From: Candidatus Bathyarchaeota archaeon
GTDB lineage: Archaea > Thermoproteota > Bathyarchaeia > Bathyarchaeales > Bathycorpusculaceae
Reading direction: 5' to 3'
Length of the DNA: 64,000 bases
Assembly: GCA_026014485.1 (NCBI GenBank)
Contig: JAOZIE010000023.1
Coordinates: forward strand, 310,001-374,000
This document shows, piece after piece, positions 56,070-63,825 of this stretch. Both the position numbers and the translations under genes were made by a program. Every line of letters begins with the position of its first letter. Within the stretch, counting starts at the first letter, position 1. The notes below the pieces were generated by a model, which saw nothing but the letters and a program-made list of their open reading frames with translations, ran no database searches and was not told the origin of the DNA.

Positions 56070-56405
56070 TTAAGGTTGGTTCAGGCTTTGTAAAGCTTCT
56101 TTTTGGGAAGGGAATATTTTAAAAATCTGTGTGAAACCCGATATTTCAAATACCTCATACACATAAGGTTTCATGGAAACTAATAGAATTTGGCCGTCTG
56201 TTTTTTGTAAATTTTTAGCTGAAGACAGAAGAACCCTCAAACCCGCACTGGCTACATACTCAGTTTGAGAAAAATCGCAAACAATTTTTTTTGTTCCTTT
56301 TGCAATTAGCTCTCGTAGTACCATATCAACATCGTTAGCAGTATAGGCGTCGAACCTGGGTACCATGACTGCTATAGTTACGTCGTCTTCTGTCCTTATC
56401 TCCAT
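56070..56405 (-). CDS. STAS-domain anti-anti-sigma-type protein, first
   Basis: A 111-residue RsbV/SpoIIAA-like domain: VPRFDAYTANDV, the phospho-site region CDFSQTEYVASAGLRVLLSSA with Ser at the usual place, and YEVFEISGFTQIFKIF. In bacteria such proteins bind the kinase RsbW when unphosphorylated. ATG at 56405 follows GTGAGG; the longer frame to 56432 overlaps the kinase gene. It is close in sequence to the protein at 58686. Confidence 0.9.
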   Translation of the reverse strand: MEIRTEDDVTIAVMVPRFDAYTANDVDMVLRELIAKGTKKIVCDFSQTEYVASAGLRVLLSSAKNLQKTDGQILLVSMKPYVYEVFEISGFTQIFKIFPSQKEALQSLNQP

Positions 56406-56415
56406 GTTCCTCACT

Positions 56416-56898
56416 TCATTTTGAAGATTCATTTTTTTTTATATACTTCCCTATTATTAATAGATTCATATCATTACTCCGAACGTACTCTACCTCATCC
56501 ATAAATTTTCTCATAAAAAAAATTCCCAACCCGCCTACTTTTCGTTCATTCAAATCGCTTTCGGTATCCGGATTTGGTATAGTGGTCGGGTCAAACGGTT
56601 TCCCCCAATCCATAATATTAACTATAAATTTTTCACCGGAGATAGGTAGCATGCAACGGATTACAATGGTGCCCTCACTTTTGTTAGAGTATGCATGTTT
56701 GATGATGTTTGTGCAGGCTTCATCAACCGACAATTGAACTGCATATATGTCTTTGATGCTTTGTATCTTGCATTGTTTCATTGTTTCCTCTATGAATTCG
56801 CTTATTACCGGTAGCTTTTCGAGCTTACTTTCCACTGTAAGTTCAAACTTTTCTTCCGTAGTCTCATTCTCAGTTTCTGTCCTTTGCTTGCCTTTCAA
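56416..56898 (-). CDS. RsbW/SpoIIAB-type serine kinase (HATPase)
   Basis: A 160-residue GHKL ATPase. The N-box is SVDEACTNIIKHAY, the G1 region DWGKPFDP, and the G2 region KVGGLGIFFMRKFMDEVEY. In the bacterial system it phosphorylates the STAS partner and sequesters a sigma factor. Archaea have no such sigma factor, so its second partner is unknown. TTG start six bases after the phosphatase stop; the order phosphatase-kinase-STAS is that of an rsb operon. Confidence 0.9.
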   Translation of the reverse strand: MKGKQRTETENETTEEKFELTVESKLEKLPVISEFIEETMKQCKIQSIKDIYAVQLSVDEACTNIIKHAYSNKSEGTIVIRCMLPISGEKFIVNIMDWGKPFDPTTIPNPDTESDLNERKVGGLGIFFMRKFMDEVEYVRSNDMNLLIIGKYIKKNESSK

Positions 56899-56904
56899 CG
56901 CACA

Positions 56905-58512
56905 TCAGGTCCCCTTGATAACAAGCAGTGTGATGTCATCAAACTGTGGCATATCCACGGTGAACGCCTTTACCTCGGATAAAATCTGCTCGAGAATCGC
57001 CTGTGCCGGAAGATGGGCATTTTTCTGAATGATTTCGATGAGGCGTTTTTCCCCGAACAGTTCTTCCTTAGAATTGATTGCCTCTGTAACACCATCAGTA
57101 TACATGACGATGGCATCACCTTTCTCGATTGTCACTCTTCGGGATTTATATTCCCCGTTCTCGACAGCCCCAAGCACAATGCCCGTAGGCATAAGCTTCT
57201 CAACTGTCTCGTTATGACTCCGGAAAACCACTGGGGGGTTGTGGCCGGCATTAACGTAGGTAAGGGACCTGTCTTTCTCGTTTAGCATACCAAAAAAGAG
57301 GGTTACAAACATCCCTGACTTTGAATCTTGGGTTATCGTATTGTTGGAATTGTAGATTACTTTCGCTGGGTCGTGATGCCAGAGTGCGTTTACCCTGACC
57401 ACAATCCTTGATAACGCCATAAAAAGAGCTGCTGGAACGCCTTTTCCGGAGACATCTGCAACAAGTAGTCCATGCGTGCCCTTGTCAAGAGTCATAACCT
57501 CGTAGGGGATCACGTCAAAGAAGTCTCCTCCGACCTCCTTTGCCATGACGGTCTGGGCGGCGATATCAAATTCTGGAATCTGAGGGATTGTCTCTGGTAG
57601 AAAGCTTTTCTGTATTTCTGCCGCAATCTGAAGCTCCGCATTTGAACGGGCAAGTCGCCCTTCCATCTCACGGCGTTCGGTGATGTCGCGGATTGTTTCG
57701 ATGGCGCCAATAACCTCCCCGTTAGTTGGGTCGTAGAGTGGGCTTGCCTTTGCCCAGAAATAGGCGCCGCCTGGTCGAAAGTCTGGAATAAAGACATCAA
57801 CAACAAGAGTGTCTACATTCCGCTCCACCGTGTTGTATCTTTTTCTTATCTCATCTTCTGGCATGAAAACTAAGTCTGCCAGCATTGGTCTGCGTTCCTT
57901 GTAGAATGGAAGGGCATATTCATAATTTCCTTTGCCGAGCATGGCACCTTCGGGGATGCTGGTTAGCATTTCCATGGCGCTGTTCCACGCGATGACTTTG
58001 CCTTTTGTGTCTATGACAAGTGTGGCGTCGGGGAGGAAACTGAGGATATCTGCAAGGCTGCGGCGTGACCGCGCTATCTCTTGTTCTGCCAGTTTTCGTT
58101 CGGTGATGTCGCGGATTGTTTCGATGGCGCCGATAACGTTTCCAGTATTGGGGTCGTAGAGTGGGCTTGCCTTTGCCCAAAGATAGGCACCGCCTGGTCG
58201 AAAGTCTGGAATAAAAATCTCGACAACAAGTGTATCGTCTATTCGTTCGACTGTGTCATATTTCTTTTCTACCTCGACTTCAGGCATGAAAACTAGATCC
58301 GCCAATATTGGTCTGCGTTCTTTATAGAACGGAAGCGCGTACTCGTAGTTGCCTTTTCCGAGTATGGAGTTTCGGGGGATGCTGGTTAGCATTTCCATTG
58401 CGCTGTTCCACATGATGACTTTGCCTTTTGTGTCTATGACAAACGTGGGGTCGGGTAAAAATTCGATTATTGCATCGCGGACTTTCTTGCCATCGGCGTT
58501 CATGTTTTGCAC
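56905..58512 (-). CDS. PAS-PAS-SpoIIE-type serine phosphatase (RsbU-like)
   Basis: A 535-residue protein: two PAS domains (about 14-140 and 155-281) and a PP2C-type SpoIIE phosphatase (about 300-535). The PAS copies are near identical with a 141-residue period (FLPDPTFVIDTKGKVI and FLPDATLVIDTKGKVI). The phosphatase shows KEVGGDFFDVIP, LLVADVSGKGVPAALFMA and MYTDGVTEA, whose Asp residues bind the two metals. It would dephosphorylate the STAS proteins in response to the PAS signal. The first gene of the run. Confidence 0.93.
   Translation of the reverse strand: MQNMNADGKKVRDAIIEFLPDPTFVIDTKGKVIMWNSAMEMLTSIPRNSILGKGNYEYALPFYKERRPILADLVFMPEVEVEKKYDTVERIDDTLVVEIFIPDFRPGGAYLWAKASPLYDPNTGNVIGAIETIRDITERKLAEQEIARSRRSLADILSFLPDATLVIDTKGKVIAWNSAMEMLTSIPEGAMLGKGNYEYALPFYKERRPMLADLVFMPEDEIRKRYNTVERNVDTLVVDVFIPDFRPGGAYFWAKASPLYDPTNGEVIGAIETIRDITERREMEGRLARSNAELQIAAEIQKSFLPETIPQIPEFDIAAQTVMAKEVGGDFFDVIPYEVMTLDKGTHGLLVADVSGKGVPAALFMALSRIVVRVNALWHHDPAKVIYNSNNTITQDSKSGMFVTLFFGMLNEKDRSLTYVNAGHNPPVVFRSHNETVEKLMPTGIVLGAVENGEYKSRRVTIEKGDAIVMYTDGVTEAINSKEELFGEKRLIEIIQKNAHLPAQAILEQILSEVKAFTVDMPQFDDITLLVIKGT
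57640..58480 (-). repeat. Tandem duplication of a PAS-coding unit
   Basis: The DNA of the two PAS domains is directly repeated at a distance of 423 bases (exactly 141 codons); for example the same 30-base-plus stretch begins at 57676 and at 58099. The high identity at DNA level points to recent duplication or gene conversion. Confidence 0.8.
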
Positions 58513-58615
58513 TCTACGGGGATAGGTATTATTCGGTATAGCTAATTAGCTTTTAGAGCAAGCGAAACCGGGCTTTTTGTATTGAGATTTTTCTTCAAGA
58601 AACATTTGATGCAAA

Positions 58616-58624
58616 CTATAAATA
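58616..58624 (+). promoter_or_regulatory. Box A of the STAS/TPP-enzyme operon
   Basis: CTATAAATA 70 bases before the STAS start, in the divergent region opposite the phosphatase operon. GAGGG at about 58675-58679 is the ribosome binding site. Confidence 0.5.
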
Positions 58625-58685
58625 CGCCCGCAACGTCAAGAAAAATGAATTAACAATAACAAGTTTCTATACTGAGGGTTTGCAG

Positions 58686-59030
58686 ATGAATGTTGAAGTA
58701 AAAACTGTTGACGATTCAAAAATAATTGTTGTCCCCAAGAGATTTGATGCCTATACTGCCAATTCGGTAGAGGAAGAACTAACCCGACTAATTGGTGAGG
58801 GTACTCGCAAGATAGTTTGTGATTTCTCCCAAACTGACTATCTTGCCAGTGCAGGACTAAGAGTTCTCATTGCCGCATCGAAAAACCTGCAGAGAGCAAA
58901 CGGCAAGATGGTTCTCTGCTCAATAAAAGCATACGTGCTTGAAGTATTCGAGATATCGGGCTTAAACAAAATCTTCAAAATTTTTGGGTCAGTTGACGCT
59001 GCCCTACAAGACCTAAAGCAGGTTGTATAA
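58686..59030 (+). CDS. STAS-domain anti-anti-sigma-type protein, second
   Basis: A 114-residue RsbV-like protein, clearly a paralogue of the one at 56070 (VPKRFDAYTANSV, CDFSQTDYLASAGLRVLIAAS, LEVFEISGLNKIFKIF). It is divergent from the kinase/phosphatase operon and two bases before a TPP enzyme gene. ATG at 58686 has GAGGG seven bases upstream; a TTG at 58680 is less likely. Both STAS proteins could compete for the one kinase. Confidence 0.9.
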   Translation: MNVEVKTVDDSKIIVVPKRFDAYTANSVEEELTRLIGEGTRKIVCDFSQTDYLASAGLRVLIAASKNLQRANGKMVLCSIKAYVLEVFEISGLNKIFKIFGSVDAALQDLKQVV

Positions 59031-61056: not shown

Positions 61057-61788
61057 ATGGACTTTTTTGACCTTATGAATATATCACACCGCTATATGGA
61101 GATACTCAACCCTTCTACGTCTGAAAAAATCATCCAACTCGGCAAACTGCTCAAGTTGAAAAAAGGTAGTCGAGTTATAGACTTCGGTTGTGGTTGTGCC
61201 GAATCTCTCGCTCTTTGGGCTGAGGAATTCGGTATTACCGGTATTGGCATAGATATTTCTGGGGATTTCTGCGACCGTGCCAGGGATAAGTTGGTTAAGA
61301 GAGGGTTGTCGGGTCAAATCGAACTCGTATGCTCCCCCGCGGCTGACTACGTGTTCGAGGAGGGGGCTTTCGATGCCGCAACATGTATTGGGGCAACTTT
61401 TGTTTTTGGCGGTTTCCAGCAGACAATTCAGGCGATGAAGCGGGCTGTGCATCAGAATGGGCGCCTCGGCATCGGTGAAACTCACTGGCTTAGCAGTCAG
61501 GTACCTCCGGAATATGCCCAAAAACAGACAACTACCCACACGGAACCCGAACTGGCCCAATTTATCCGAAACGAAGGCTTTGAACTTGAATATATCATCC
61601 GTTCCAGCCGCGATGACTGGGACAGGTACATTTCGGATAATTGGTATGGACTGTTACGTTGGCTTGAAGAAAATCCCAACCACCCTGACCGTGAACAGGT
61701 ATTCAAACACTTCCGTACTGACCAGGATGATTATTTGCAGTTTCAAAGTCAATATATGGGCTGGGCTATGTACTGCCTTTCTTCGTAA
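61057..61788 (+). CDS. Class I SAM-dependent methyltransferase
   Basis: A 243-residue methyltransferase of the Rossmann type. Motif I is VIDFGCGCAESLALWAEEFG (about 41-60), motif II has GIDISGDFCDRAR, and motif III is FDAATCIGATFVFGG. It resembles the ubiquinone/menaquinone or small-molecule group rather than DNA methylases. It starts with ATG behind GACGGAGG-type sequence. It stands just before the putative RiPP precursor and radical SAM enzyme on the same strand, so methylation of the peptide product is possible but unsupported; a new promoter follows its stop. Confidence 0.85.
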   Translation: MDFFDLMNISHRYMEILNPSTSEKIIQLGKLLKLKKGSRVIDFGCGCAESLALWAEEFGITGIGIDISGDFCDRARDKLVKRGLSGQIELVCSPAADYVFEEGAFDAATCIGATFVFGGFQQTIQAMKRAVHQNGRLGIGETHWLSSQVPPEYAQKQTTTHTEPELAQFIRNEGFELEYIIRSSRDDWDRYISDNWYGLLRWLEENPNHPDREQVFKHFRTDQDDYLQFQSQYMGWAMYCLSS

Positions 61789-61986: not shown

Positions 61987-62018
61987 CACCAGTTAGGTTA
62001 ATGCGAACGGTGGATACA

Positions 62019-62243
62019 ATGTACAAAATTGAGCAGAACGAGTCAATTAAAATAGCCGAACATATGCATGAAGAACTTGCATCAATAAATTTCTTCAAAC
62101 CTGTTTTTAAAACGCACGAAGTATTAGCAGCAACTGCACAGGGCACCATATGTGAAGACTTGTGCGAAACCCCCTGTTCTTCCGGTTGTGAAAAAGATTG
62201 CATGAGTGGCTGTTATAATAGCTGTATTATAACAAGTAAGTAG
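62019..62243 (+). CDS. Putative cysteine-rich RiPP precursor peptide
   Basis: A 74-residue peptide. Residues 1-43 are a helical, charged leader-like part (EQNESIKIAEHMHEELASIN...). Residues 45-69 hold seven cysteines at positions 45, 49, 53, 57, 61, 65 and 69, spaced exactly Cys-x3-Cys throughout (CEDLCETPC, SSGCEKDC, MSGCYNSC), then IITSK. Leader plus Cys-rich core immediately before a radical SAM/SPASM gene is the layout of sactipeptide and ranthipeptide loci. ATG at 62019 is chosen for its GGTGG and promoter spacing; ATG at 62001 adds six residues. Not recognised as a known precursor family. Confidence 0.75.
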   Translation: MYKIEQNESIKIAEHMHEELASINFFKPVFKTHEVLAATAQGTICEDLCETPCSSGCEKDCMSGCYNSCIITSK

Positions 62244-62343: not shown

Positions 62344-63825
62344 GTGGCAGAAACTACTCCAATTAAGCAAGAATTACATTCATTTAATAGTAAAGATGTC
62401 TTGGTTTTAGATTCAAAATGGGTTTTGAGGAACGACAAAACCTACGTTGTGCTCTACTTAGTTAGCTCTTCGGAAACAAAAGTGTGGATTCTGCCAGCGC
62501 CTCTATCATATGCGATTGCTTTTATTAATGGTAGAAACACGTTCGATCAAATTTGCTTTTATATTGGTAAAGTTTTTGGCATTGAAAAGGAGTTTGAGGC
62601 GAAACAAAAAACTACAAAAATCATCAACGTTTTGAAACATAATGGTGTTGGGGTATCCATTCTTGCAGAGAACCAAGGTTATCATCCAAATATTTATGAA
62701 ACAAAAGACTTCTTTGTTCCAGTAAGAAATTATAAAGGTCCTTTCAGAAATAGGCTCAAGGTGCCCACAAGTATCAATTTGTTTACTACAAAAAAATGCA
62801 ATACGAACTGTCTTTACTGCTATGCTGATCGAAGACCTGATGATCAAGGGAACCTTTTGTCTATGAATGAATGGAAAGCGATTATTGATGAATGTATTGC
62901 TTTAAATATTTGGAACATAGGGCTTGTGGGCGGTGACCAACTTGCGTCAAGTGATAGCTTTGCTGTTGTCAAGTACCTTTTAGGCAAACAGGTTCCAGTA
63001 TTTATATCTACTAAGTGCGAAGTGACTGATAAAATTGCAAAGGACTTAGTGGTTGCAGGTTTTCTCTCGGCGTCTCTCAGGAACTTGAACGAACTTCAAT
63101 TAAGTGTTGATAGCGCGAATTCAAGAAATGCAGATTTGTTAACCGGTACCTCGGGGTTCCTTGAAAGAGTTTGCCGAAGTATTGACTGTTGCACGGCGCA
63201 TGGAATCGTGCCAAAGATTAAGGCAGTTTTGACTCCGTTTAATTATATGGAAATCGAAGAAATAATTAGTTATTTTTCGGAGAAAGGTATTGTAGATTTT
63301 CAATTTGTCCATTGCGGTCGTAGTTATTTTAAAGAGAACAAAAACCTCTTGCTGACAGAGGACATGAAAAAGTGGATTCATGACTCAAAAGAACAAGTCC
63401 TCGCCAAATATCCAAACTTCAAAATAACCATACAAGATGAACCGCCTAGGAACATAAGCAGAACCGAAAAAATCGAAACGTGGAAGAGGCGGGCTAAATG
63501 CAGCGGCGGATATAGTTCACTTACCATTTTGCCAACAGGATTTGTTATTGCTTGCGAGCAAATTCCACAGATACCCCAATATTTCATGGGGAATATACGA
63601 GATGGGGGCATAATGGGAGTTTGGAATAATGAGAAAATAGAGCGCTTTCTTTTTCCTGAACAAAGCCTGTTCAAAGGTTCACCTTGCGGAAAATGTGACG
63701 AATTCGTGAATTGCTTTGATAATGCTGGATTTTGTTTCCGAGATGCTATATTTGCTTACGATGATATCTTTCAGGCACCGCCAAGTTGCCCCAACCAGAA
63801 TCGAAAACCAAGAAGATTATCTTAG
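62344..63825 (+). CDS. Radical SAM/SPASM peptide maturase with PqqD-like N-terminus
   Basis: A 493-residue enzyme. Residues 20-105 (VLRNDKTYVVLYLV, ILPAPLSYAIAFINGRNTFDQIC, a helix ending VLKHNG) look like the PqqD-type RiPP recognition element. The radical SAM motif is C152-x3-C156-x2-C159 (CNTNCLYC), with GLVGGDQ following. From about residue 385 a SPASM region has CSGG, IACEQ, CGKC, NCFD, GFCF and PSCP cysteines for two further Fe-S clusters. Fit: it binds the leader of the peptide at 62019 and modifies its core. GTG start is uncertain. The gene is visibly A+T richer than the window average. Confidence 0.9.
   Translation: MAETTPIKQELHSFNSKDVLVLDSKWVLRNDKTYVVLYLVSSSETKVWILPAPLSYAIAFINGRNTFDQICFYIGKVFGIEKEFEAKQKTTKIINVLKHNGVGVSILAENQGYHPNIYETKDFFVPVRNYKGPFRNRLKVPTSINLFTTKKCNTNCLYCYADRRPDDQGNLLSMNEWKAIIDECIALNIWNIGLVGGDQLASSDSFAVVKYLLGKQVPVFISTKCEVTDKIAKDLVVAGFLSASLRNLNELQLSVDSANSRNADLLTGTSGFLERVCRSIDCCTAHGIVPKIKAVLTPFNYMEIEEIISYFSEKGIVDFQFVHCGRSYFKENKNLLLTEDMKKWIHDSKEQVLAKYPNFKITIQDEPPRNISRTEKIETWKRRAKCSGGYSSLTILPTGFVIACEQIPQIPQYFMGNIRDGGIMGVWNNEKIERFLFPEQSLFKGSPCGKCDEFVNCFDNAGFCFRDAIFAYDDIFQAPPSCPNQNRKPRRLS

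Follow-up and report, generated by a model that had tools for sequence, protein, structure and literature searches.

A period-4 cysteine ladder peptide beside an RRE–radical SAM–SPASM enzyme: a probable archaeal RiPP precursor and its maturase

Cys-x3 repeat systems and the archaeal locus

Small peptides with C-terminal Cys-x3 repeats are already named in NCBIfam as radical SAM targets (TIGR04117, Syntroph_Cxxx, and TIGR04118, Cxxx_AC3_0185), together with an adjoining radical SAM/SPASM maturase (TIGR04115, rSAM_Cxxx_rpt), and a further named system, CefB (NF038107) and its target, has a Cys at every fifth position. Many sactipeptide precursors consist of separate donor and acceptor halves. 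Freyrasin contains six CX3D rings (PMC9413430), and published work counts QhpD, like PapB and CteB, among the non-alpha linkers. Our search of the open literature turned up no account of the chemistry behind a Cys-x3 repeat peptide, and no paper mentioning TIGR04115 or pairing a CXXX repeat with radical SAM.

Here we describe an archaeal peptide–enzyme pair near the end of a 64,000-nucleotide stretch of DNA (the window, meaning the whole stretch analysed). Like the TIGR04117/TIGR04118/TIGR04115 systems, the pair combines a small peptide bearing C-terminal Cys-x3 repeats with an adjoining radical SAM/SPASM maturase. However, it lies below every cut-off: the window peptide scores 18.7 bits against TIGR04117 (cut-off 50), with only the profile end aligned (70–97 of 98), and 9.5 bits against TIGR04118 (cut-off 35), whereas TIGR04115 (cut-off 350 bits) has five matches in the genome at E 1e-3, none of them at the window locus. 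Unlike TIGR04115, the window maturase, which does not match that model at E 1e-3, carries a fused PqqD-like domain. Because NCBIfam names these targets and their maturase, the category of Cys-x3-repeat radical SAM targets already exists, and uniqueness of the uninterrupted ladder, which the preliminary description set apart from known ranthipeptides, is not supported.

The ladder peptide and its partner enzyme

The features of the locus are as follows, in window coordinates.

61057–61788, + strand: class I SAM methyltransferase, upstream (Pfam Methyltransf_25/11)
62019–62243, + strand: putative precursor ORF, 74 aa, with an ATG start at 62019 and the stop at 62241–62243
62019–62150, + strand: putative leader, residues 1–44, its role suggested by its position and by the PqqD-like domain of the neighbouring maturase
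62151–62240, + strand: core CEDLCETPCSSGCEKDCMSGCYNSCIITSK, with seven Cys, one at every fourth residue (ladder 62151–62225)
62344–63825, + strand: RRE–radical SAM–SPASM peptide maturase, 493 aa, GTG start, assigned from Pfam and from homologues beside Cys-rich peptides
62344–62676, + strand: PqqD-like RiPP recognition element, maturase residues 1–111 (hhalign)
62797–62820, + strand: radical SAM motif C152-x3-C156-x2-C159, invariant in the eight-member alignment A3
63499–63789, + strand: SPASM domain (Pfam SPASM; alignment A3)

Translation from the ATG at 62019, which is preceded by GGTGGA, gives MYKIEQNESIKIAEHMHEELASINFFKPVFKTHEVLAATAQGTICEDLCETPCSSGCEKDCMSGCYNSCIITSK and then the stop; an alternative in-frame ATG lies six codons upstream, at 62001. 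The only cysteines are residues 45, 49, 53, 57, 61, 65 and 69, confirming the unbroken period of four reported earlier, with the first Cys codon starting at 62151 and the last ending at 62225. If seven Cys were placed randomly in the last 30 residues, an exact step-4 series would arise with a probability of 3e-6. The residue at i+4 is Cys for six of the seven ladder cysteines and Ser for the last, the gap triplets are all different (EDL, ETP, SSG, EKD, MSG, YNS) and include five acidic residues, and only IITSK follows C-terminally. An origin of the ladder in a DNA repeat can be ruled out, as Tandem Repeats Finder detected no tandem repeat at this position.

It had been proposed that the i, i+4 array would place all cysteines on roughly one side of a helix. 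This is not supported by the composition of the core, in which G, N, D, S, T and P account for 57% of the non-Cys residues compared with 20% in the leader, and the mean helix propensity is worse than that of the leader. The same bias holds across the period-4 cores, where these residues make up 57–80% of the gap positions, compared with 20–33% of the leaders. Because the gap residues are turn formers, the idea of a helical face is weakened, and we reject a helical stripe for the ladder.

The radical SAM neighbour sought for the ladder is present: the radical SAM/SPASM gene lies directly downstream on the same strand, separated by 100 bp, and its product matches Pfam Radical_SAM with 48 bits and SPASM with 34.8 bits. 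At its N-terminus, a Pfam search alone of the RRE region gave no match, and hhalign against five PqqD proteins gave a probability of 94.9% (E 4.5e-8), compared with <0.1% for controls with reversed PqqD and an unrelated PqqE slice. The SPASM region follows the pattern C386-x12-G399-x4-C404, C448-x2-C451-x5-C457-x6-C464 and C482, and all seven of these cysteines are invariant in the alignment. The enzyme thus has the CX3CX2C and SPASM Cys motifs general to radical SAM/SPASM RiPP maturases, and the locus pairs a PqqD-like element and maturase with an adjacent short candidate leader–core precursor, as in RRE-dependent RiPP pathways. Since RRE, radical SAM and SPASM domains occur in one protein, the enzyme appears to be self-contained, with one chain to bind the leader, generate the radical and house the auxiliary clusters. 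We regard it as highly probable that the pair is a RiPP precursor and its maturase, and the radical enzyme very probably acts on the adjoining ladder peptide.

The upstream methyltransferase is a possible but unproven partner in the pathway; none was seen beside homologous maturases at the relatives' loci examined. No peptidase or exporter adjoins the precursor–maturase pair. Past the window end lie genes for a DNA methyltransferase, a BrxC/D-like ATPase and a Cas4-like protein (L059:5855-10083), as well as for a primase-like protein, and these genes downstream of the maturase possibly form a defence or mobile island. A defence role for the maturase itself was considered and rejected, its viperin matches being generic and at the superfamily level only. 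Elsewhere in the window (56070–59030) is a partner-switching set comprising two STAS genes, of which the second is divergent, together with an RsbW-like HATPase and a SpoIIE phosphatase with two PAS domains. An Alba gene found in a genome of the same family supports an archaeal lineage, in agreement with the preliminary description.

Enzyme–peptide pairs in bacteria and a second ladder in the same genome

No convincing close orthologue of either the window peptide or the enzyme was found in 256 genomes of the class and approximately 400 of the phylum, the genus included, and the pair is unique among these genomes; searches with the peptide in related genomes returned weak matches only (E 0.04 to 0.6). 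Viral contigs contained no relatives of the peptide or the maturase. A six-Cys DNA pattern run over the whole genome matched on four further contigs, of which C5, C11 and C23 gave low-complexity or off-frame sequence; on C2, the match at 185083 is apparently low-complexity, and that at 153186–153446 is a second true coding ladder. Across 398 genomes, the pattern mostly retrieved low-complexity repeats, and two promising matches, G141:C67 and G423:C9, were discarded since no plausible Cys-ladder gene occurs there. In a same-genus genome (L062:8424-9806, G001:C4), a Cys-rich ladder, CPFVCAIGCGAGCVVICAAACAAPC, occurs at the C-terminus of a rhodanese-like protein that is probably exported.

Searches that did not rely on the peptide recovered full-length relatives of the maturase (25–30% identity) in a few bacteria, and most of these adjoin a small peptide with a Cys-rich core. 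On rhizobial plasmids (Rhizobium, Mesorhizobium, Bradyrhizobium), the maturase is 26–28% identical and the neighbouring peptide ends in SCTVCPCMICW. These clusters (L063:4668-7875, L064:4604-7839, L069, L070, L071), in which the SCTVCPCMICW precursor and the RRE–radical SAM enzyme are joined by a second radical SAM enzyme, resemble a so far uncharacterised symbiont RiPP locus with two enzymes. A Paenibacillus plasmid, on which the maturase gene is annotated as two pieces in different frames, encodes two precursors, ICGQCEAGCINCQTGCNNG and RCTMGCSMRCTSCSPGCSTGG. In a Melioribacteraceae MAG (maturase 28–30% identical), the adjoining core NCWPSCTDCVTGCTICVTDCVKCVSNCTECVTDCIQC has 11 Cys with spacings alternating 4/3. 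The core SCVTNCDSDCVTNCTDGCTLACDSDCRTGCTSGCTFS, with nine Cys and every spacing 4, stands beside the maturase in two further genomes that share the GTDB phylum of this MAG, Bacteroidota. Extending the search to the order level around these two genomes brought no additional members. Near two more distant enzymes of this phylum (L082:7338-8810, L083:7065-8537), no Cys-rich peptide was seen; these RRE–radical SAM–SPASM-type enzymes adjoin TonB-receptor-like proteins and C39-peptidase-like transporters.

In a tree that took in PqqE, MftC and other radical SAM proteins and left out the Paenibacillus maturase, seven ladder-associated enzymes, the window's included, lie together on the same side of a branch supported at 74/80, and the Melioribacteraceae and two period-4 enzymes are closest to that of the window. 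The tree thus lends moderate support to a clade uniting the window and the ladder-associated bacterial maturases. The precursors of the two period-4 bacterial genomes show 34 amino-acid-changing and 18 silent codon differences in their 117-codon leader, but none and five, respectively, in their 33-codon core (Fisher p 9e-5 when amino-acid changes are counted per codon; p 0.008 when they are set against silent ones). In this branch, the core is therefore under constraint, including its gap residues.

The preliminary description had predicted that homologues would keep the period while the intervening residues varied, and had taken freely drifting spacing as evidence against the ladder. The prediction holds in one distant branch, where the two period-4 bacterial genomes share the period with the window and have entirely different gap residues, and in other branches of the maturase family the spacing is 4/3 (Melioribacteraceae and Paenibacillus) or shorter (rhizobia), so that both outcomes are seen in part. 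Because of this shift in spacing within the family, dense Cys spacing is the family trait and strict period 4 a trait of two branches only.

The second coding ladder of the genome, on contig C2 (L058:6552-9887), belongs to a protein of 594 aa and 63 Cys; in its C-terminal part, 34 spacings are of 4 and 14 of 3. The protein has no NCBIfam match and is followed by a P/Q/N-rich ORF and then by a PapB-like radical SAM/SPASM enzyme that scores 224 bits against PapB (cut-off 340), 116 against TIGR04115 (cut-off 350) and 108 against CefB (cut-off 600). Another seven genomes of the class encode orthologues of this enzyme, at 62–67% identity and in one case 42% (L099-L106, L107-L114), and all copies adjoin large or multiple Cys-ladder proteins with about 30–60 Cys. 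In contrast to the window system, the C2 enzyme groups with PapB and QhpD, and apart from the Cys array its substrate has no likeness to the window peptide. The C2 system nevertheless shows that ladders of Cys spaced by 3 or 4 turn up repeatedly in this lineage as apparent radical SAM substrates. Since a different enzyme stands beside the giant C2 ladder, the coupling of such ladders to radical SAM chemistry seems to have arisen here no fewer than two times.

Possible chemistry of the ladder and comparison with known systems

Our preferred reading, to which we assign a probability of roughly 60% on the basis of sequence, is that the 74-aa ORF encodes a RiPP precursor and that the downstream enzyme cross-links its Cys ladder with local thioethers. 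As a plausible sequence of events, the leader would dock on the PqqD-like domain fused to the enzyme, the radical SAM cluster would abstract hydrogens from residues near each Cys, and the SPASM clusters would handle the Cys sulfur and electrons, thereby converting the ladder into a chain of small thioether rings before release of the mature peptide. As the ladder is not followed by any acceptor segment, the rings would be local, within or between neighbouring repeat units, rather than a nested hairpin, which we exclude. No residue type other than Cys dominates all cores, which makes Cys the likely site of modification; we infer a thioether product from what SPASM enzymes are known to do with substrates rich in Cys (reviews PMC8326336 and PMC11002830). 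An S-to-alpha-carbon bond would be a weakly favoured first guess and an S-to-beta/gamma bond the second, since its sequence places the enzyme closer to PqqE, SuiB and SkfB than to PapB and QhpD; among solved structures, these three are the nearest to the family profile in a PDB comparison, closer than CteB and anSME. Against the preferred reading stand the C–C bonds that PqqE and SuiB form, the low identity to relatives, the moderate clade support, the uniqueness of the window pair among the genomes sampled, and the lack of an adjoining peptidase or exporter. More tentatively, and with doubt prevailing, a separate family of RRE-fused radical SAM enzymes might make continuous thioether-ring chains from uninterrupted Cys-x3 ladders, with Cys possibly acting in turn as donor and acceptor. 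If true, this would be a scaffold unlike the known sacti- and ranthipeptides, and one present in archaea.

A rather unlikely alternative is ranthipeptide-type chemistry, in which the Cys sulfurs would be linked to the beta or gamma carbon of nearby acidic, Asn, Ser or Thr residues by thioethers like those of freyrasin, SCIFF and NxxcA. The acidic residues within the window ladder could serve such a reaction, freyrasin (PMC9413430) resembles ladder precursors in having no separate acceptor half, and the tolerance of PapB for C-Xn-D (n from 0 to 6) means that spacing can be loose. However, the window maturase scores only 35.2 bits against the PapB model (NF047865, cut-off 340) and does not fall on the QhpD/PapB side, and the bacterial period-4 ladder, with gaps of mostly Thr, Ser, Asn, Asp and Gly, offers no acceptor common to all repeats. 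The window peptide itself has no PapB-type Cys-x3-Asp/Glu pair, as i+4 is Cys rather than Asp or Glu, and in this respect the contrast with Cys-x3-Asp ranthipeptides drawn at the outset was fair.

Less probable still is a metal or Fe-S ladder, in which the thiols stay free to bind metal and the enzyme acts on another target or on just a portion of the peptide. The high Cys density, and the alternation of Cys-x2-Cys and Cys-x3-Cys in some relatives, would be compatible with metal binding, but the RRE-fused maturase recurs beside such peptides in several phyla, and Cys is the only common core residue, leaving no evident alternative target. That the peptide is genuine and the adjoining enzyme serves another substrate, the archaeal adjacency being coincidental, we consider very improbable: although the class yielded no close orthologues of the archaeal pair, distant bacterial loci repeat the pairing, including an exact period-4 ladder beside a homologous enzyme.

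To our knowledge, few archaeal RiPPs have a known product, and the window pair looks like a real but chemically uncharacterised modified-peptide system. Its compact two-gene unit, a 74-aa precursor and a self-contained RRE–SAM–SPASM enzyme, would allow enzymatic processing of a strictly repeated Cys array without designated acceptors to be probed. The homologous ladders with period 4, 4/3 or shorter spacing form a natural series for distinguishing residue counting from Cys density.

Compared with the described families, the window maturase shares radical SAM and SPASM domains with AlbA, SkfB and PqqE, but it scores far below the respective cut-offs of the sactipeptide models (AlbA 48.4/850, SkfB 30.9/300 and StsB 34.1/625 bits) and of PqqE (50 bits, cut-off 381). 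The separate donor and acceptor halves of many sactipeptide precursors are absent from the window peptide. CefB and its target, judging by the family name, likewise make a periodic Cys ladder a radical SAM target, with period 5 rather than 4, and the CefB model is absent among the 25 matches listed for the window enzyme. Freyrasin and PapB resemble the window pair in combining a Cys ladder with three-residue gaps, a single SPASM maturase and no separate acceptor half; in freyrasin, each Cys is paired with the Asp at i+4 (PMC9413430), whereas in the window peptide that position is held by the next Cys.
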